This document shows, one piece after another, positions 8,983-18,071 of a stretch of 51,491 bases of DNA. The stretch is from Chloroflexota bacterium. GTDB lineage: Bacteria; Chloroflexota; Dehalococcoidia; Bin125. The notes beneath the pieces were generated by a model. That model made no database searches, was not told where the DNA came from, and saw only the letters and a list, made by a program, of their open reading frames with translations. The stretch covers positions 1 to 51,491 of the forward strand of contig VXQZ01000034.1 of assembly GCA_009838735.1 (NCBI GenBank). Direction: 5' to 3'. The first letter of the stretch is position 1. Each line of letters starts with the position of its first letter. The translations under genes were made by a program, and so were the position numbers.

Positions 8983-10884
8983 ATGTCTGGCGCAGACGGG
9001 CTTCCCCGGTGTGTCCTCGTTGCCAATCGGGGCGAGATCGCCTCGCGCATCATGCGCACCTGCCGGCGTCTGGGCGTGGGCACGGTCGCGGTGTATTCCG
9101 ACGCCGACAGGTCGGCGCCGCATGTTGCGTATGCGGATCGTGCGGTGCGAATTGGTGCCGCTGCGGCCGCGGACAGCTACCTCCATATCCCGGCGTTGCT
9201 CGAAGCCGCACGATCGTCGGGGGCGGACGCAGTGCATCCCGGCTACGGATTTCTCTCCGAGCGAGCCGATTTCGCGCAGGCAGTGGTAGACGCCGGATTG
9301 ACCTGGATCGGCCCTCCGGCGTCGGCGATTGAGGAGCTAGGCGACAAGGTGTCGGCACGTCGATTGGCGATCGCCTCGGGCGTGCCGGTTGCTGAGGGTG
9401 TGGAGGAGGACGAGGGCGACGCGGCCTTGTCCTCGGCGATTGAGGAGATGGGCCTGCCGGTGATGATCAAGGCGGCGGCCGGCGGCGGCGGACGCGGCAT
9501 GCGGCTATTGAGAACCAGCGACGACGCGCCCGATGGCATCGAAGCCGCAGTGGCGGGCGCCCGTCGTGAAGCGCAGGCAGCGTTCGGCGACGGTCGACTG
9601 TTGGTCGAACGGGCAATGTCGGAAGGCAAGCACGTGGAGGTCCAGGTGCTCTTCGACGAGCATGGCAACGGCGTCCACCTGGGCGAACGCGACTGCTCGG
9701 TCCAACGCCGCCGGCAGAAAGTGATTGAAGAGTCACCCTCGCCGGCCGTTAGCGATGTCATGCGCGAGGAGCTGGGGCGTGCGGCGCTCGATGTCTGTCG
9801 AGCTGCAGGATATGTCGGGGCGGGCACGGTCGAGTTCATGCTGATGCCCGATGGTGCGTTCATGTTCCTCGAGGTCAACACCCGGTTGCAGGTCGAGCAT
9901 CCGGTCACGGAGATGCTGACCGGACTGGACCTGGTCGAACTGCAGCTTCGCGTTGCAGGTGGGGATACATTGCCCGTCACGACGGATGACATCACATCCA
10001 ATGGTCACGCGATTGAGACCAGAATCTATGCAGAAGATCCGTCGCGGGGGTACGTGCCATCAACCGGCCGGCTGCGCTGGTTCGAGGCGCTGGATGGCCG
10101 AGCGCGGCACGATGTCGGTCCCGCGACCGGCGATCTGGTCACCGCTCATTACGACCCGATGTTGGCCAAGACGATCGTTCATGCCGAGACTCGTGGCGAG
10201 GCGCTGGATCGAGCGACCGAGGCTCTGGACGCCTGGGCAATTGACGGTGTGACGACCAATCTGGGTCAGCTTGCCTCGATTCTCGAGTCGGAGGATTTCC
10301 GTGCCGGTTCGGTCGACATTGGCTGGCTGGATCGCGTTGAGTTGCAGCAGCGGGAACCCCCTGCGGCTGCGCTCGCTGCGGCCGCGGTGGCCGAGGCGCA
10401 GGCCGGCGCCTGGCGCTCGTCGGGCGAACTGGCGCGCAAGTACCTGTTGCATGGCCGGCCGCTCGAGGTTCGCGTGTCGCGGACTACCGACGGATGGTCG
10501 GCCGTTGTCGACGGCGTCGAACACGATCCCGTTGACCTGGGCCGGGACTGGACGGCGGACGTTTCGCCTCGCGGTGTGGTCGTGAGACACAACGATCAGC
10601 GGTGGGTCTTCCTGCGAGAACGCCGGCGGCGAACGGGAGCAGGTCGCAGCCGCACCGCAGGGGCGAACGTCGTTCGCGCGCCGATGCCGGGGACGATGAT
10701 CGAGGTGCTGGTGGCAGTCGGCGATGAAGTCGAGGCGGGTCAAACGCTGGCAGTCATGGAAGCGATGAAAATTGAGCACCTGTTGAGCGCCCCGAACGCG
10801 GGCGTCGTGAAGATGGTGCACACCAGCGCCGGGGCCTCGGTCGACGAGGACGCGGTGCTGATTGAATTGGGAGCGACTTCGTGA
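8983..10884 (+). CDS. acyl-CoA carboxylase alpha subunit (biotin carboxylase + biotin carrier)
   Basis: A 633-residue protein with a biotin carboxylase N-domain (VLVANRGEIASRI), an ATP-grasp domain with the Gly-rich loop AAAGGGGRGMR, the EVNTRLQVEHPVTE motif, a biotin carboxylase C-terminal domain, and a biotinyl domain. The biotin is attached at K596 in VMEAMKIEH. It carboxylates biotin with ATP and bicarbonate for a partner carboxyltransferase (acetyl-, propionyl- or methylcrotonyl-CoA). No carboxyltransferase beta subunit is in the window, so the acyl substrate cannot be fixed. The methylmalonyl-CoA epimerase at 16627 makes propionyl-CoA plausible. Its stop overlaps the next start by 4 nt. 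Confidence 0.92.
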   Translation: MSGADGLPRCVLVANRGEIASRIMRTCRRLGVGTVAVYSDADRSAPHVAYADRAVRIGAAAAADSYLHIPALLEAARSSGADAVHPGYGFLSERADFAQAVVDAGLTWIGPPASAIEELGDKVSARRLAIASGVPVAEGVEEDEGDAALSSAIEEMGLPVMIKAAAGGGGRGMRLLRTSDDAPDGIEAAVAGARREAQAAFGDGRLLVERAMSEGKHVEVQVLFDEHGNGVHLGERDCSVQRRRQKVIEESPSPAVSDVMREELGRAALDVCRAAGYVGAGTVEFMLMPDGAFMFLEVNTRLQVEHPVTEMLTGLDLVELQLRVAGGDTLPVTTDDITSNGHAIETRIYAEDPSRGYVPSTGRLRWFEALDGRARHDVGPATGDLVTAHYDPMLAKTIVHAETRGEALDRATEALDAWAIDGVTTNLGQLASILESEDFRAGSVDIGWLDRVELQQREPPAAALAAAAVAEAQAGAWRSSGELARKYLLHGRPLEVRVSRTTDGWSAVVDGVEHDPVDLGRDWTADVSPRGVVVRHNDQRWVFLRERRRRTGAGRSRTAGANVVRAPMPGTMIEVLVAVGDEVEAGQTLAVMEAMKIEHLLSAPNAGVVKMVHTSAGASVDEDAVLIELGATS

Positions 10885-12284
10885 GCGATGCGGACGTCCT
10901 GCGAGAGAGGCGGCGTCGAGTTGATTCGGAGTGGTCCGGTGTTGACTTCGACGGTCCGGTATTGATTCCGGCCAGTCTGCCGATTCCGATTGACGGGACC
11001 GATCAGTTTCATGAGTTCCATGCGCATCCGGAGTTCCAGTATCTGACCGGCGTGGCCGAACCGGGCGCGGCGCTCGCGTGGGAGCCCGATGCGGGCTGGA
11101 CGCTGTTCGCGCCGTCGCTCACGGTCGAGGACCTGGTCTGGATGTCAGCGCCTCCATCAGCCGAGGCACTGGCTGCTGAGACTGGCGTGACGAATTCCGT
11201 GGATCGAGCCGAGTTGTCCGGCTGGTTGGAGGCGCGACGAGGTCGAGGGATTGCCCTGCTGGGCTCGCGGGACATTGAGTCGCGCGCGACTGAGTACGGC
11301 GCTGAGTCGTGGTCGACGCTCGAGGCGATCGTTGACGAGGACGCAACAGACCGTTTGGGCAGAGCGCTGGCTGGGTTGCGGCGGGCCAAGGACTCGGTTG
11401 AGCTGGACCGGATGACCCGCGCGGTCGACGCGGCCGTAGCCGGCCACGTCGCGGCGCAACGGCTGGCCAGAGACGGGTTGACCGAACGGGCGCTGCAGAT
11501 TGAGATGGAGGCGGAGTTCTTCCGCCAAGGCGGGGCGCGGACCGCGTATGGCTCGATCGTCGGTTCCGGGCCGAACTCTGCGATCCTGCACGGAACGCCG
11601 GGCGAGCGGGTGATGTGGGATGGGGAGTTGGTGCTGATTGATGCAGGAGCGGAGATTGATGGTTATGCCTCGGATGTGACGCGCACGTTCCCGGTTTCCG
11701 CAGCGTTCTCCGGAATTCAACGTGATCTGTACAACGTGGTCCTGGCCGCCCAGCAGGAGGCGATTGCGGGCGCCGGTCCCGGCGTGGAGTACAAGTCCTT
11801 GCACATGCAGGCATCGGCGACGATTGCGCAGGGGTTGGTCGATGCGGGGATCCTTCGTGGATCGGTCGAAGATCTCGTCGCGTCAGACGCGCACGCGTTG
11901 TTCTTCCCGCACGGGCTCGGACACATGCTGGGTCTTTCGACCCATGACTGCGCCGGCTATCTCGAAGGGCGTGTGCCCGAGGACCGGTTCGGACTCGCCT
12001 ATCTCAGAACGGACCTGCCGCTGGCGCCGGGTTATGTCGTGACGATCGAGCCGGGCGTGTACTTCGTCCCGGCGCTGCTGAACGATCCTGAGCGGCGTGA
12101 GCGCTACGCGGAGATGGTCGATTGGGAGGTTGTCGACGGGTTGCTGGACTTCGGCGGCATCCGGATTGAGGACGACGTGATGATCACCGCGAACGGCTGC
12201 GACGTCATGAGTGACGCGCTGCCCAAGGCAGCCTCCGAGATCGAGGCGATTCGGCGTGATGCATTGGGCGCGTCGAGTGGCTGA
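10881..12284 (+). CDS. pepP: Xaa-Pro aminopeptidase (M24B)
   Basis: A 467-residue enzyme that cleaves N-terminal residues before proline. An aminopeptidase P N-domain (about 1-160) is followed by the pita-bread catalytic domain. All five metal ligands of the dinuclear centre are visible: D254 (LIDAGAE), D265 (YASDVTR), H348 (HGLGHMLG), E390 (VTIEPGV) and E430 (IRIEDD). The GTG start at 10881 overlaps the carboxylase stop (GTGA), so translation is probably coupled. It is followed by an overlapping DPP-IV-type peptidase, which makes a proline-peptide processing pair. Confidence 0.92.
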   Translation: MSDADVLRERRRRVDSEWSGVDFDGPVLIPASLPIPIDGTDQFHEFHAHPEFQYLTGVAEPGAALAWEPDAGWTLFAPSLTVEDLVWMSAPPSAEALAAETGVTNSVDRAELSGWLEARRGRGIALLGSRDIESRATEYGAESWSTLEAIVDEDATDRLGRALAGLRRAKDSVELDRMTRAVDAAVAGHVAAQRLARDGLTERALQIEMEAEFFRQGGARTAYGSIVGSGPNSAILHGTPGERVMWDGELVLIDAGAEIDGYASDVTRTFPVSAAFSGIQRDLYNVVLAAQQEAIAGAGPGVEYKSLHMQASATIAQGLVDAGILRGSVEDLVASDAHALFFPHGLGHMLGLSTHDCAGYLEGRVPEDRFGLAYLRTDLPLAPGYVVTIEPGVYFVPALLNDPERRERYAEMVDWEVVDGLLDFGGIRIEDDVMITANGCDVMSDALPKAASEIEAIRRDALGASSG

Positions 12285-14385
12285 GCGGCTGACGATCTCC
12301 GACGTCGCGACCTACCCGCGTCCGGGGATGGATGCCCCGGGGATGGTTGGCTTTACGCCCGACAGCTCGGCGGTGACCTGGCTGCACGCTGGCGAGGGCG
12401 GACTAGTCAGGTCGCTGTGGCGGATTGAGATTGAGTCAGGGGAGCGCTCGGTGATCGCCGGACCGGGCGCCGACGCGCCGATGTCACGCGAGGAGGAGTT
12501 GTTGCGCGAGCGGACTCGGACCCGCGAGCTCGGCGTCTCCTCCTATTCCTGGGCGCGCGAGTCTGAGGTTCCGCTGTTGATGATCCCCGGTCCGACCGTC
12601 CGGATTGCAGTGGACGGCGCAGCGCTCGTGGAGTTGCCGGGTAGCGAGGGCGCGCTCACTCCGACGCTGAGTCCCGACGGGACGCAACTGTCGTTCGTGC
12701 GTGGAGGCGAGCTCCTTGTCATGAGAGTGGACGGTCAGTCGGAGCCGAAGCAGTTGACCTCCGGTGCGGACGATGGCCTGACGCACGGACTCGCCGACTA
12801 CATCGCGCAGGAAGAGTTTGGCCAGCTTCGCGGTCATTGGTGGTCGAAGGACGGTCGGATCGCGTTTCTGCGCGTCGATGAGCGGCACGTCGCGCCGTAT
12901 CCGATCGTGCATCAGGGCGGCAACGACGTGGATGTTGAGACGCATCGCTATCCATTCGCCGGCGACGAGAACGCGTATGTCTCGCTCTGGGTGTTGAACG
13001 TGGAGTCCGGCGACGCACGGGAACTGCCGCTGCCCGATGAAGACGGCTATCTCGTTCGCGTCGCCTGGTGGCCCGACGGCGCCGGCGGTCAGCGGTTGGT
13101 GGCCCAATGGATTGACCGCACGCAACAACGCCTGCAACTCATTGAGTTTGACCACGAAAGTTCGCGAGTGCTGATCGATGAAGTCCAGGAACCCTGGATC
13201 AACGTGGCCGACGATGCTCGGGGCTTGAAGGATGGGACGTTCATCTGGTCCTCCGAAGCGTCGGGATTTCGCCATCTTTCCTTACGGGCCGCCGATGGAT
13301 CCGAGCTGCGTACGTTGACGCAGGGCGAGTGGATGATCGACGGCGTGATCGAAGTGGATGAGGATTCGGGCTGGATCTACGTCAACAGCACGCGTGGGTC
13401 CGCGCTGGAGCGACGGGTCGAGCGAGTTTCTCTGCACGATGGAGAGATTGAGACGCTGTCGGAGCCGGGCGGGCTCCATGGCGCGTCGTTGTCGCGCAAC
13501 GGCAAGTGGCTGGCGATGATGAGTTCGTCGCTGACCGCAGCGCCGACGATCACGCTGGTCGCGACCGACGGCTCCGAGCGGCGGACACTGTACGAATCCG
13601 ACATCTCGCTCGGTTCGATCGGGATCGGCGCTCCTGAGTTGCGCACGTTTTCGGCCGCGGACGGCACGACGCTGTATGGAGCCCTGTATCGGCCGGAGAG
13701 CGACGGCCCGCATCCGCTGCTGCTGGCGGTCTATGGCGGGCCGCACGCTCAGACCGTGCTCGACGCCTGGGGTCTGACGGTGGATCTGCGGGCTCAATAT
13801 CTGGCGCAGCAGGGCTACCTCGTGCTCAAGCTGGACAATCGGGGGATGGCCGGACGCGGGCTGGCGTTCGAAGCGCATCTGCATCGTCAGATGGGCACGA
13901 TCGAGGTGGACGACCAGTCGGATGCCGTGCAACAACTGGCCGACGAGGGTCTGATCGACATCGAGCGAGTGGGCGTCTACGGCTGGTCGTACGGCGGCTA
14001 CATGACCGTGATGTCGATGCTGCGCCGACCTGACATGTTCAAGGTGGGCGTGTCTGGCGCACCGGTCTCGGACTGGGATGGCTATGACACCGGCTACACC
14101 GAGCGCTACATGGGCACACCGCAGAACAACGCCGAGGGCTACCGCGAGGGATCGCTTCTGGCCCATGCGGACAAGCTGGAAGGTCAACTGCTGCTCATTC
14201 ACGGCGGCGTTGACGAGAACGTTCACTTCCGGCATACGGCAAGATTGATCACGGCGCTGACTGCCGCCGATCGCGACTACGATCTCTTGATGTTCCCCGA
14301 GGAACGTCACATGCCGAGAGATCAAGCAGGCCTGGAGTACCAGGAGCGTCGAGTCGCTCGATACTTCGATCGACATCTGAAGTAG
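12277..14385 (+). CDS. dipeptidyl-peptidase IV-type serine peptidase (S9B)
   Basis: A 702-residue S9 peptidase with an N-terminal beta-propeller and a C-terminal alpha/beta hydrolase domain. The propeller carries the double Glu motif typical of DPP IV (E179-E180 in AQEEFGQLRG), which binds the substrate amino terminus. The triad is S571 (GWSYGGY), D646 (GGVDENVHF) and H678 (ERHMPRD). No signal peptide is seen, so it is probably cytoplasmic. The likely start is GTG 12277, which overlaps the pepP stop by 8 nt; ATG 12259 is an alternative. With pepP it would release Xaa-Pro dipeptides. Confidence 0.88.
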   Translation: MAERLTISDVATYPRPGMDAPGMVGFTPDSSAVTWLHAGEGGLVRSLWRIEIESGERSVIAGPGADAPMSREEELLRERTRTRELGVSSYSWARESEVPLLMIPGPTVRIAVDGAALVELPGSEGALTPTLSPDGTQLSFVRGGELLVMRVDGQSEPKQLTSGADDGLTHGLADYIAQEEFGQLRGHWWSKDGRIAFLRVDERHVAPYPIVHQGGNDVDVETHRYPFAGDENAYVSLWVLNVESGDARELPLPDEDGYLVRVAWWPDGAGGQRLVAQWIDRTQQRLQLIEFDHESSRVLIDEVQEPWINVADDARGLKDGTFIWSSEASGFRHLSLRAADGSELRTLTQGEWMIDGVIEVDEDSGWIYVNSTRGSALERRVERVSLHDGEIETLSEPGGLHGASLSRNGKWLAMMSSSLTAAPTITLVATDGSERRTLYESDISLGSIGIGAPELRTFSAADGTTLYGALYRPESDGPHPLLLAVYGGPHAQTVLDAWGLTVDLRAQYLAQQGYLVLKLDNRGMAGRGLAFEAHLHRQMGTIEVDDQSDAVQQLADEGLIDIERVGVYGWSYGGYMTVMSMLRRPDMFKVGVSGAPVSDWDGYDTGYTERYMGTPQNNAEGYREGSLLAHADKLEGQLLLIHGGVDENVHFRHTARLITALTAADRDYDLLMFPEERHMPRDQAGLEYQERRVARYFDRHLK

Positions 14386-14415: not shown

Positions 14416-15207
14416 ATGCCGATTCCCAGTACAGCGGCCGACGCAGCAGCGCTTCTGGGCGTGGGGGTCAGCGCCGATCGCGACACGATCCGCGATCGGT
14501 ACCGGCGGCTGGCGCGGATTTACCATCCCGACGCCAACCCCGACGACGACGCTGCCGGGACCCGCATGCTGGAGTTGAACGCGGCCATCGACTTGTTGCT
14601 GGGGGCGGACACTCCGACGATCGATCTGGACTTTGAGCCGCAGCCGCGGGAGCGGGCGCTGACTCCGCGCGAGCGTCGCCAGGATGCGCGGATTCGCTCA
14701 GCGCTCCAGCATCTGCCCTACGGCATCTATGTCGTTGGCACGGTCACGTCAGAAGGCAAGCCGAATGCGATGGTCGCCGACTGGGTGATGCAGGTATCGT
14801 TCAAACCGCGGATCCTCTGCGTATCGTTCGAGCGAGACGCGACCTCGCTGAAGAATCTGCGTGAAACACGTCAGCTCACCATCAGTCTGCTTCCGGAGTC
14901 GGGCATGGATCTGGCTGCCAAATTCCTGCAGCCAAGCGATCCATCCAAGATCGAAGGCCGATCGGCCGAGTTTGCCGCGCCGGACAAGATGCGGGGCGTG
15001 GCCTACGTTCAGCTCGAACACCCGGACCTTGAGGGCGGCGCGCCTGTGCTCGAGGACTCGCTGGCCTGGGTCGCCGCCGAGGCGCAGCAGTTCATCCCGA
15101 TCGGTGAACACATCCTGGCGCTCTGCCGGGTGTTCGACGGCGACGCGCTGCCGATCGACGAAGGGCCCCTGACCTCGCTCTATACCGGCTGGCACTATGG
15201 CGGCTAG
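14416..15207 (+). CDS. J-domain fused to a flavin-reductase-like split barrel
   Basis: A 263-residue protein. Residues about 5-60 form a DnaJ-type J-domain, with helix II basic residues (RDRYRRLARIY) and the invariant HPD at 37-39. Residues about 90-250 match the flavin reductase-like FMN-binding split barrel (GIYVVGTVTSEGKPNAMVAD, then PRILCVSFERDATSLKNLRET). J-domains recruit and stimulate Hsp70 (DnaK); the split barrel binds FMN and acts in flavin or substrate reduction. I do not know this combination as a standard family. ATG 14416 is preceded by GGGGA. The gene lies 30 bp after the S9 peptidase gene. Confidence 0.8.
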   Translation: MPIPSTAADAAALLGVGVSADRDTIRDRYRRLARIYHPDANPDDDAAGTRMLELNAAIDLLLGADTPTIDLDFEPQPRERALTPRERRQDARIRSALQHLPYGIYVVGTVTSEGKPNAMVADWVMQVSFKPRILCVSFERDATSLKNLRETRQLTISLLPESGMDLAAKFLQPSDPSKIEGRSAEFAAPDKMRGVAYVQLEHPDLEGGAPVLEDSLAWVAAEAQQFIPIGEHILALCRVFDGDALPIDEGPLTSLYTGWHYGG

Positions 15208-15337: not shown

Positions 15338-16567
15338 ATGCGGGTGTTCGGGCGTCGGGTTCGGACATTCGAATCGTTCCGTGAGCCTGCGTTTCGCTGG
15401 TTCTTCGTCTCGACGCTGGCCCAGATGTACTCGGCGATCGGGCAAATGTTTGTCCGTACGTTTTTGATCTACGAGCTGACCGAGTCCTATGCGGCCGTGG
15501 GGCTGGCGGCACTGGTTGGGGGCGCGGTTCAGCTGGCGCTCGGACCATACGGCGGCGTGCTGGCCGATCGGTTTCCCAAGAAGTCGGTCACGCAGATATT
15601 CCAGTTCGTCGGATTTCTCAATGCATTCCTGATCGGCACGCTGGCGGTCCTGGGCATCCTTGAGTACTGGCACCTGTTGATCTCGGCGGTCTCCCAGGGA
15701 GTGCTCGTGGCGCTGATGGTGCCGGCGCGGCAGGCGATGGTCTCGGAAATCGTGTCCAAAGCGCGGATCATGAACGGCGTCGCCCTCAATACGGCGGCAA
15801 TGAACATCATGCAGTTCGCCGCTCCGTTAATCGGCGGAGCGCTGCTGGCGACCGCCGGGGCGGGCGTCACCTTCTATGCCATGGCCGGCTGTTATGCCGT
15901 GGCGATGCTGACCATGTTGCCGATTCCCAGCGTGGCTGCGCAGGCCGGTCGCGGCACCGGGGGAGTGCGCGCTGCAATCAAGGACATCAGCGATGGGTTC
16001 CGCTACATCGCGAGGCATCGTGTCTTGCGCATGATCCTGTTCCTCTCCTTCTTCGTCTCAATGCTGGGCACGCCGTTCCAGGGCCTGCTGCCCGGATTCG
16101 TGCAAGACGCGTTCGACGCCGGGCCGGCCCTGGCGGCGTTGTTCATGACCTTTTCGGCGATCGGCGCGTTCCTGGCGGCGTTGATCATCGCCTCGCTGAG
16201 GCGGAGCGGGCGCGGCAAACTGCTGATCCTGATGGGCGTGCTGCTCGGCGGCGCGACGCTGGGGATTGCGATCTCGCCCTGGTTCTGGCTCAGTCTGCCG
16301 ATCATGATCGTCATGGGCATTGGCCATTCGGGCCGGATGACGATGGCGTCGGCCCTGATCCAGGAACAGGCCGAGCCCGCCTATCGCGGCCGGACCATGT
16401 CGGTGCTGATGATGCAGTTTGCCGTCATGCAGGGCGGCGTCTTCGTGCTCGGCATCGCTGCGGAGCTGGTCGGCATCCGCCTGGCGGTGTTTGCGGTGGC
16501 CGTCGTGTTGCTGATCGTCATCGCGTTGTTCGGGACGTTCTCGCCGACGCTGCGACGGCTGCAGTAG
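15338..16567 (+). CDS. MFS transporter, exporter type (EntS-like)
   Basis: A 409-residue integral membrane protein with about 12 hydrophobic segments and an MFS motif A-like loop (GGVLADRFPKKSV). It resembles the MFS_3 group, which includes enterobactin and macrolide exporters. The substrate is not readable. Start uncertain: ATG 15338 has no good ribosome site. ATG 15197 would overlap the upstream gene and add 47 residues that look polar and unconserved. It lies 130 bp after the J-domain gene. Confidence 0.82.
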   Translation: MRVFGRRVRTFESFREPAFRWFFVSTLAQMYSAIGQMFVRTFLIYELTESYAAVGLAALVGGAVQLALGPYGGVLADRFPKKSVTQIFQFVGFLNAFLIGTLAVLGILEYWHLLISAVSQGVLVALMVPARQAMVSEIVSKARIMNGVALNTAAMNIMQFAAPLIGGALLATAGAGVTFYAMAGCYAVAMLTMLPIPSVAAQAGRGTGGVRAAIKDISDGFRYIARHRVLRMILFLSFFVSMLGTPFQGLLPGFVQDAFDAGPALAALFMTFSAIGAFLAALIIASLRRSGRGKLLILMGVLLGGATLGIAISPWFWLSLPIMIVMGIGHSGRMTMASALIQEQAEPAYRGRTMSVLMMQFAVMQGGVFVLGIAAELVGIRLAVFAVAVVLLIVIALFGTFSPTLRRLQ

Positions 16568-16626
16568 GGGTCGACTATCTTGACGCCGACGGCAAGCAGG
16601 TCCGGGGGAAGCGCCAGGAGGCGAGC

Positions 16627-17061
16627 ATGATTACCCATCTCGATCACGTCGGCATCGTTGCGCACTCGCTGGAGGAATCGTTGGCGGTGCTGGTTGACCA
16701 GCTCGGTCTTGAGCGAGACACCGAGCGCACGCCGTATCCGAAGGGCGGGTACTTCGCGCCCGAGCGGACGAAGATCTTCTTCGTCAAGGTCAACCTCGGC
16801 GAGACGCGGATTGAGATTCTGCTTCCCGAGGACAATGAGAGCGGGATCGGCCGGTTCCTCGAGCGCCGGGGGGCCGGACTGCATCATCTCGGCTACGGCT
16901 CCACCGATGTGGTCGGCGACACCAAATTGTTCATGGAACGTGGACTGAGCTACATCGACTTTGGCGGCCCGATTGACGAGATTACCGCCTCCTTCTTTCA
17001 CCCCAAGACGGCCGACGGGATCCTGACGGAGATCGTTCCCGATCGGCGGCCGCAGGCCTGA
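16627..17061 (+). CDS. methylmalonyl-CoA epimerase-like VOC protein
   Basis: A 144-residue vicinal-oxygen-chelate protein that would interconvert (S)- and (R)-methylmalonyl-CoA. Candidate metal ligands are H7 (LDHVGI), H86 or H87 (GLHHLGY) and E135 (ILTEIVP). The family-typical RIEILLPE, GRFLERRGAGLHH and FFHPKTADGIL segments are present. An AGGAGG site precedes ATG 16627. It would follow a propionyl-CoA carboxylase such as the one whose biotin subunit is at 8983. No mutase is in the window. Other VOC activities are possible. Confidence 0.85.
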   Translation: MITHLDHVGIVAHSLEESLAVLVDQLGLERDTERTPYPKGGYFAPERTKIFFVKVNLGETRIEILLPEDNESGIGRFLERRGAGLHHLGYGSTDVVGDTKLFMERGLSYIDFGGPIDEITASFFHPKTADGILTEIVPDRRPQA

Positions 17062-17098
17062 ATCAGACCCTGAGTTCGGCGACACATCCGCAGGGCTC

Positions 17099-17127
17099 GT
17101 CATGCCCGCGGCAGGCGCGGGCATGAC
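17099..17127 (+). repeat. perfect 12-bp-stem hairpin
   Basis: Arms gtcatgcccgcg and cgcgggcatgac around the loop gcagg, with no mismatch. It resembles REP-type elements and sits between the epimerase and patatin genes. There is no T-run after it. It may end the upstream transcript or be a mobile palindrome. Confidence 0.75.
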
Positions 17128-17189
17128 GGTTCGCGTTGTCGGAACGCGTTGTGCGAGAGTGCAGAGACGGAGGGCGGCAAGCAGTTCCG

Positions 17190-18071
17190 ATGACGCTGAG
17201 CTTGCGGGGATTCGAAGAGCGGCGGCTGGCGCTGGTGTTGAGCGGTGGCGGCGCGTCCGGAATCGTGCAAGTGCCGTTCCTGGAGGAACTGATCCGCCGC
17301 CAGATTCGACCCGACATGATCGTGGGATCTTCAGTCGGCGCCGTCAACGGGGCATTCCTCGCCTTCCACCCCGACAACATCGAGGGGCTGGCCGATCTCT
17401 GGATTGCACTGCGGGACACGCGGCTGTGGCACCGCAACCTGCTGCGGATCACGAGGAACCTGTTGACCCGTGGTACGTCGGTCTACTCAAATCGGTTCCT
17501 GCGAGACCTGTTCAGCCAACATGTCACAATCGACGAAATTGCGGCAGCGGAGATTCCCCTGCACATCGTCACGACCAGCCTCTCCAGCGGCCGCAAGCAC
17601 GTGATGAACAAGGGGCAACTCCTGGCCTCGGTGATGGCCTCGGTCGCTGTGCCCGGTCTGTTTCCGCCAGTCCGGCTCGACGGCGACTGGTGCGTTGACG
17701 GCGGCCTGTCATCGGGCCTCGACCTCGAGACCGCGATCCTCCAGGGAGCAACACATACGATTGCGGTCGATCTCGGCGTCCATCCCTCGCCGTATCAGCC
17801 ACGCGGCCTCGTGGATTTGCTGGCTCGCTCGATGGAGATTGCCGTGCAGGAGCGGACGAAAGCGGAGATCGATCAGTTTGGTTCGCTCGTGCCGACCGTG
17901 GTCTGGCGACCCGGCCTGCGAGCGTTGTCATTCGGCTCGTTCGGAGACGTCACGGAGCTTTACGCTGCGGCGAAGGAGCTCGCGCCCGTGATGATTGATC
18001 AGGCTCTCGACACACAGGGCAACTGGAAGCCTGGCGTCTACGAAGGCGTCGTGCCTCTGGCGAAGGCGTAG
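17190..18071 (+). CDS. patatin-like phospholipase / acyl hydrolase
   Basis: A 293-residue patatin-domain protein that hydrolyses acyl esters with a Ser-Asp dyad. The oxyanion loop is SGGGASG, the nucleophile S48 lies in GSSVG, and the Asp is D170 in VDGGL. No signal peptide or membrane segment is seen. ATG 17190 follows GGAGGG; the frame could start at 17136, but those residues derive from the hairpin flank. It ends 3 nt before the CoA-transferase subunit gene, so the two may be cotranscribed. Confidence 0.87.
   Translation: MTLSLRGFEERRLALVLSGGGASGIVQVPFLEELIRRQIRPDMIVGSSVGAVNGAFLAFHPDNIEGLADLWIALRDTRLWHRNLLRITRNLLTRGTSVYSNRFLRDLFSQHVTIDEIAAAEIPLHIVTTSLSSGRKHVMNKGQLLASVMASVAVPGLFPPVRLDGDWCVDGGLSSGLDLETAILQGATHTIAVDLGVHPSPYQPRGLVDLLARSMEIAVQERTKAEIDQFGSLVPTVVWRPGLRALSFGSFGDVTELYAAAKELAPVMIDQALDTQGNWKPGVYEGVVPLAKA

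Follow-up and report, generated by a model that had tools for sequence, protein, structure and literature searches.

A conserved fusion of a J-domain with a flavin-reductase-like split barrel in one family of Dehalococcoidia

In a 51,491-nucleotide stretch of Chloroflexota DNA (hereafter the window), a single gene encodes one conserved two-domain protein, in which a J-domain precedes a flavin-reductase-like FMN split barrel and both domains are under strong purifying selection. The features of the gene and of its surroundings are collected in Table 1.

Table 1. Coordinates of the fusion gene, its domains and motifs, and the neighbouring genes in the window
Feature	Position	Strand	Basis or remark
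Biotin carboxylase subunit, M24 aminopeptidase and DPP IV-type peptidase genes, upstream	8983..14385	+	Pfam; same order in 13 further loci of the genus
J-domain/flavin-reductase fusion, whole CDS	14416..15207	+	Single open frame; two Pfam domains above cut-off; full-length homologues
J-domain, residues 1-66	14416..14613	+	PF00226, AlphaFold, Foldseek
Helices I, II and III of the J-domain	14434-14457, 14479-14523, 14554-14610	+	AlphaFold prediction; no helix IV
HPD motif, residues 37-39	14524..14532	+	Between helices II and III; 17/17 aligned sequences
Variable linker, residues 67-91, running into a predicted helix (84-98)	14614..14688	+	dN/dS 0.175; length differs; pLDDT < 50 at 68-78
Flavin-reductase (FMN split-barrel) domain, residues 92-263	14689..15204	+	PF01613, structural alignment
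A-D-W-V-x-Q-x-S-F-x-P-R motif, residues 121-132	14776..14811	+	SxxPP position; here SxxPR
K-x-x-G-R, residues 178-182	14947..14961	+	K178, G181 and R182 in 53/53
G-[E/D]-H motif, residues 230-232	15103..15111	+	GDH position of HpaC-type reductases, by motif
MFS transporter, glyoxalase-like and patatin-like genes, downstream	15338..18071	+	Pfam

The fusion gene and its distribution

The open frame starts with the ATG at 14416, ends with the codon at 15202-15204 followed by a stop at 15205-15207, contains no internal stop and specifies 263 amino acids. Pfam assigned residues 13-61 to DnaJ (PF00226; E 1.5e-10, 41.5 bits for a cut-off of 27.8) and residues 98-246 to Flavin_Reduct (PF01613; E 4.1e-24, 85.9 bits for a cut-off of 27). 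The original prediction of a J-domain and a split barrel in one unbroken frame (14416-15204), with an HPD motif at residues 37-39, was thus borne out. The Pfam scan gave no other domain above cut-off, and no match to a ferredoxin domain. Among NCBIfam models, the DnaJ equivalogs scored far below cut-off, as did the reductase equivalogs (StyB, HpaC, RutF, HsaB and others), of which StyB was the best with 39.8 bits for a cut-off of 200. Therefore, the protein is neither DnaJ nor one of the named reductases. The full-length AlphaFold model (mean pLDDT 81.8) showed J helices I to III, a disordered linker and the split barrel.

Selection was measured by the Nei-Gojobori method on ten members of the genus. 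The dN/dS ratios, approximate since dS is about 1 or more and informative mainly by the ranking of regions, were similar in the two domains, at 0.056 in the J-domain and 0.062 in the barrel, as compared to 0.175 in the linker. Helix II and the HPD motif together (residues 22-42) gave 0.004 and are the slowest-evolving stretch of those measured. The J-domain is thus preserved as carefully as the enzyme-like half.

The full-length fusion was found in 14 of the 15 genomes of the window genus (85-97% identity), the remaining one being an assembly in 470 contigs. At 48-52% identity, it was also found in g3 (1/1) and g5 (2/2) of the same family; the named records (L031-L046) derive from several separately titled assemblies. 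Homologues of the same architecture, the lack of which had been put forward as a ground for rejection, thus exist in three genera. A joining of two genes by a frameshift or a misassembly, the other such ground, has a negligible probability: the identical open frame recurs in independent assemblies from the three genera and coding constraint spans both halves. Chance and artefact are therefore excluded. We also considered a separate barrel made from an internal start, for which the window gene offers no in-frame ATG, GTG or TTG codon from residue 61 up to the barrel. In several relatives this stretch does contain GTG, TTG or ATG codons, and a separate barrel product is therefore possible there.

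Genera g4 and g2 are each represented by one genome, and neither gave the fusion; the g2 genome is 79% complete. Within the class (393 genomes), full-length matches were confined to this one family, with the barrel alone being common. A scan of 84,980 species relied on patterns taken from the fusion family and thus covered independent fusions of unrelated sequence incompletely; among plasmids, no record covered 80% of the fusion query. One genome, COS3_bin_3 (g3), carries a fused (L045) and an unfused (L056) copy of the barrel.

In the window genus, the fusion is preceded by the genes for biotin carboxylase, M24 peptidase and DPP IV-type peptidase, in this order, and followed by those for the MFS, glyoxalase-like and patatin proteins. 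In the window, the last upstream gene stops 30 bases before the fusion ATG. Downstream, the MFS and glyoxalase-like genes are kept in 13 of 13 genus loci and the patatin-like gene in 12. This order is absent from g3, where the neighbours include an O-methyltransferase gene, and from g5, where genes for AIM24 and for a Pyr_redox_3 flavoprotein are among them. A conserved operon partner for all fusion carriers is thereby ruled out.

Structure of the J-domain, the linker and the barrel

The complete set of J-domain helices initially proposed was recovered only in part. Helices I (residues 7-14), II (22-36) and III (45/47-62/65) were predicted, and the usual helix IV was absent from both the full-length and the J-only AlphaFold models, its place being taken by the low-confidence linker. 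The HPD motif is unchanged in all 17 fusion proteins. It is followed by an A in the window genus; the corresponding residue of E. coli DnaJ is an R. The net charge of helix II is +4 in the window genus and 0 in g3, whereas one of the g5 sequences has +1 and the other -1, so that a strongly basic helix II is limited to the window genus. When the J-domain was modelled and searched separately from the barrel, its closest Foldseek match was the DnaK-bound J-domain 5nro_B (rmsd 0.9 A over 52 columns), and the J-domain of ERdj5/DNAJC10 was among the other matches, with E-values of at least 0.01 as expected for 68 residues. The class A/B features of DnaJ (G/F region, zinc finger, C-terminal substrate-binding domains) were not found in the fusion protein.

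These data bear on whether the J-domain still works with DnaK. The absence of helix IV and, for g3 and g5, the weak charge of helix II would suit a J-domain that had lost this function and become a DnaK-independent docking or structural element. However, the invariance of HPD and the very slow evolution of helix II and HPD argue against such a loss, which we regard as quite improbable. From what is known of the family, DnaK would be engaged through the HPD motif. The linker bears on another alternative, a redox- or flavin-gated co-chaperone in which the barrel, according to its flavin occupancy or redox state, would expose or hide the J-domain and thereby switch DnaK recruitment. Tethering of a redox-cofactor domain to a J-domain via a variable linker is consistent with gating of this kind, and DnaJ-Fer offers a precedent for a J-domain with a redox domain (PMC3564930). 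On the other hand, a linker that is variable and of low confidence speaks against a fixed interface. Gating is possible, as both domains share one chain, but it is the least supported of the readings and we consider it quite unlikely.

For the barrel, residues 92-261 of the AlphaFold model were used in a DALI-type structural comparison with VIA-align. The barrel matched two-component flavin reductases, with Z 20.3 for CtcQ (8ct0; 1.9 A over 141 residues), 19.4 for ThdF (9fd5) and 18.2 for the Thermus protein 1wgb, which is also the closest by sequence. In the first motif, D122, W123, Q126, F129 and P131 are present in 53 of 53 barrels, and S128 and R132 in 52. Therefore, at the position of SxxPP, the named motif of these reductases besides GDH (PMC13040415), the S and the first P are retained and the second P is replaced by R in 52 of the 53 sequences. 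The K-x-x-G-R motif, common to the fusion and its unfused orthologues (L047-L082), possibly contacts a ligand or a partner; it sits in an inserted segment of about 13 residues for which the profile alignment shows no counterpart in 1wgb. At the third motif, G230 and H232 are found in 53/53, with a middle residue that is D in 39 sequences and E in 14, the latter being the 14 genus members. The histidine of GDH is an NADH contact in ThdF (PMC11795597). By analogy with the family, the barrel is a putative binder of flavin and NAD(P)H and a putative dimer.

PhdC, a protein of reductase fold, acts as a maturase for prenylated FMN (PMC13040415). Replacement of SxxPP by SxxPR, together with an insertion whose K, G and R are unchanged in the subfamily, could accordingly point to a barrel serving as a scaffold or flavin maturase, to which the J-domain would add DnaK for flavin delivery. 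However, PhdC has neither SxxPP nor GDH (PMC13040415), whereas the fusion barrel retains G-[DE]-H, and the unfused kin adjoin luciferase-like monooxygenases. This makes a maturase improbable in our view.

Unfused relatives, origin of the fusion and cellular inventory

The unfused Dehalococcoidia orthologue belongs to the same reductase subfamily, with 38-54% identity to the fusion barrel, and is widespread in the class. No J-domain gene was found near it in 36 loci with flanks of up to 8 kb on each side, and a J-domain gene beside an unfused reductase is thus rejected as the source of the fusion. A luciferase-like monooxygenase gene directly adjoins the reductase, on either strand, in 16 of the 36 loci; at L063, the neighbour scores 121 bits to PF00296. 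An orthologue of this monooxygenase (49-55% identity) occurs in 5/5 tested genomes of the fusion family (f1), unlinked to the fusion; in the window genome (G000), it lies at C10:118132-119151. A family of about 180 residues without Pfam match recurs near 13 unfused reductases (for instance L049:7368-7904).

Several of these observations concern a purely cis use of the J-domain, by which DnaK would be brought to fold or flavin-load its own barrel with no other client. It is favoured by the flexible linker that holds both domains in a single chain, and by the lack of a partner gene common to the three genera. Nevertheless, the unfused orthologue is widespread without a J-domain, indicating that the barrel generally needs none, and we hold exclusive cis use to be unlikely.

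The J-domain of the fusion shares 46-57% identity with that of a different protein of G017, a member of the same family (L027), as compared to 22-40% with the other J-domains of the window genome. That G017 protein (L027:790-1791, identical to L097) carries an unrelated C-terminal region without Pfam match after a J-domain of this subfamily. Joined to the barrel in one case and to this region in the other, the subfamily has two C-terminal partners so far. G017 yielded no fusion and no barrel copy, although it retains the luciferase-like monooxygenase. Outside the family, 151 Chloroflexota genomes yielded only J matches of generic length, so that the subfamily has been seen in this family alone. 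A tree of the barrels does not unite the 17 fused ones in one clade; however, an AU test does not reject such a clade (p 0.11), and the tree is therefore compatible with either one or several fusion events.

The window genome (G000, 3.15 Mb assembly) encodes 65 luciferase-like monooxygenases (PF00296) as compared to four PF01613 reductases. Large expansions of flavin monooxygenases have been reported in SAR202 Chloroflexota (PMC6946804), so the count of 65 is by itself not new. The same genome encodes one full-length DnaK and four J-proteins, including the fusion. The gene of a second J-protein (149 residues, J-domain and basic tail; L093:13217-14795, contig C31) lies directly 3′ of a gene for a WrbA/FMN_red-type flavoprotein, itself directly 3′ of a PTPS/QueD-like gene. 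Of eight other genomes of the genus that were checked, seven share this order, the eighth giving no flavoprotein match.

Proposed function and comparison with known J-domain systems

J-proteins set where Hsp70 works. Because it has an HPD-bearing J-domain without the other domains of DnaJ, the fusion protein can be assigned to class C. Our preferred reading, put forward tentatively, is that of a specialised class C J-protein whose barrel docks a flavin-dependent partner, so that DnaK folds or maintains a flavoprotein. The barrel would hold flavin and NAD(P)H and, dimerising like its relatives, would display two J-domains. It would dock on a partner that depends on flavin, the likeliest candidate being a luciferase-like monooxygenase consuming reduced flavin. 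The J-domain would then engage the only full-length DnaK of the cell and stimulate its ATPase at the docking site, and DnaK would fold or maintain the barrel, the partner, or both.

This docking role for the barrel is suggested by the retention of the fusion across the genus and in g3 and g5 with an unchanged HPD, by a J-domain as constrained as the barrel and resembling DnaK-bound 5nro, and by a cell having one full-length DnaK for four J-proteins. The likeness of the barrel to two-component flavin reductases, including G-[DE]-H, points in the same direction, as do the monooxygenase beside unfused kin, its orthologue in all f1 genomes tested, the excess of PF00296 over PF01613 proteins and the placement of the second J-protein gene of the genus directly after a flavoprotein gene. 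Of the two mechanisms initially proposed, recruitment of DnaK to a flavoprotein partner is thus supported indirectly, by the monooxygenase next to unfused orthologues and by the constraint on the J-domain. The choice of a luciferase-like monooxygenase as the flavin user is drawn from the neighbours of the unfused kin. Against the docking reading stand the lack of linkage between monooxygenase and fusion gene in fusion genomes, the presence of the monooxygenase in G017 where no barrel copy was found, the weak helix II charge outside the genus, the A after HPD and a gene context that varies by genus. A more ambitious version, in our opinion unlikely, is a dedicated flavoprotein chaperone line coupling flavin reduction or loading to DnaK recruitment, such that flavin or redox state would time the delivery of DnaK to luciferase-like monooxygenases.

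Whatever the reading, the fusion is a compact model in which to examine whether flavin loading or redox state can govern chaperone recruitment. Found in an uncultured Chloroflexota family, it connects such recruitment to flavin enzymes in a way that is open to testing, and it bears on the folding and supply of flavin-dependent monooxygenases in a genome that encodes dozens of them.

In keeping with the original statement, no characterised protein combining a J-domain with a flavin reductase was found in the literature searched, where no paper brought together J-domain, flavin reductase and fusion; papers mentioning a flavin reductase and a DnaJ domain once each are, by their titles and abstracts, on other subjects. 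Like other class C J-domain proteins, the fusion associates an HPD-bearing J-domain with a domain able to set the target, although a PF01613 barrel in this targeting role was not found described in the same literature. HpaC-type short-chain reductases (ThdF, CtcQ, PheA2, Thermus 1wgb) share the split barrel, at Z 17-20, and G-[DE]-H; in contrast, they have no J-domain and carry SxxPP where the fusion has SxxPR, and 1wgb is without the K-x-x-G-R insertion. The unfused orthologues likewise differ by having no J-domain, either in the gene or in the fetched flanks. Closer in architecture is DnaJ-Fer, a J-domain with a ferredoxin found in Viridiplantae and Thaumarchaeota (PMC3564930), which also joins a J-domain to a redox-cofactor domain in a lineage-restricted manner, but with a ferredoxin instead of a flavin barrel, in other lineages and with a partner domain of separate origin. 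ERdj5/DNAJC10 (PDB 3apq, 5ayl) similarly combines a J-domain with redox domains, of the thioredoxin type, but it uses thiol chemistry and belongs to the eukaryotic ER. Overall, the fusion represents a new, lineage-restricted and strongly selected domain combination, for which the known precedents are the J-domains joined to redox domains in DnaJ-Fer and ERdj5.
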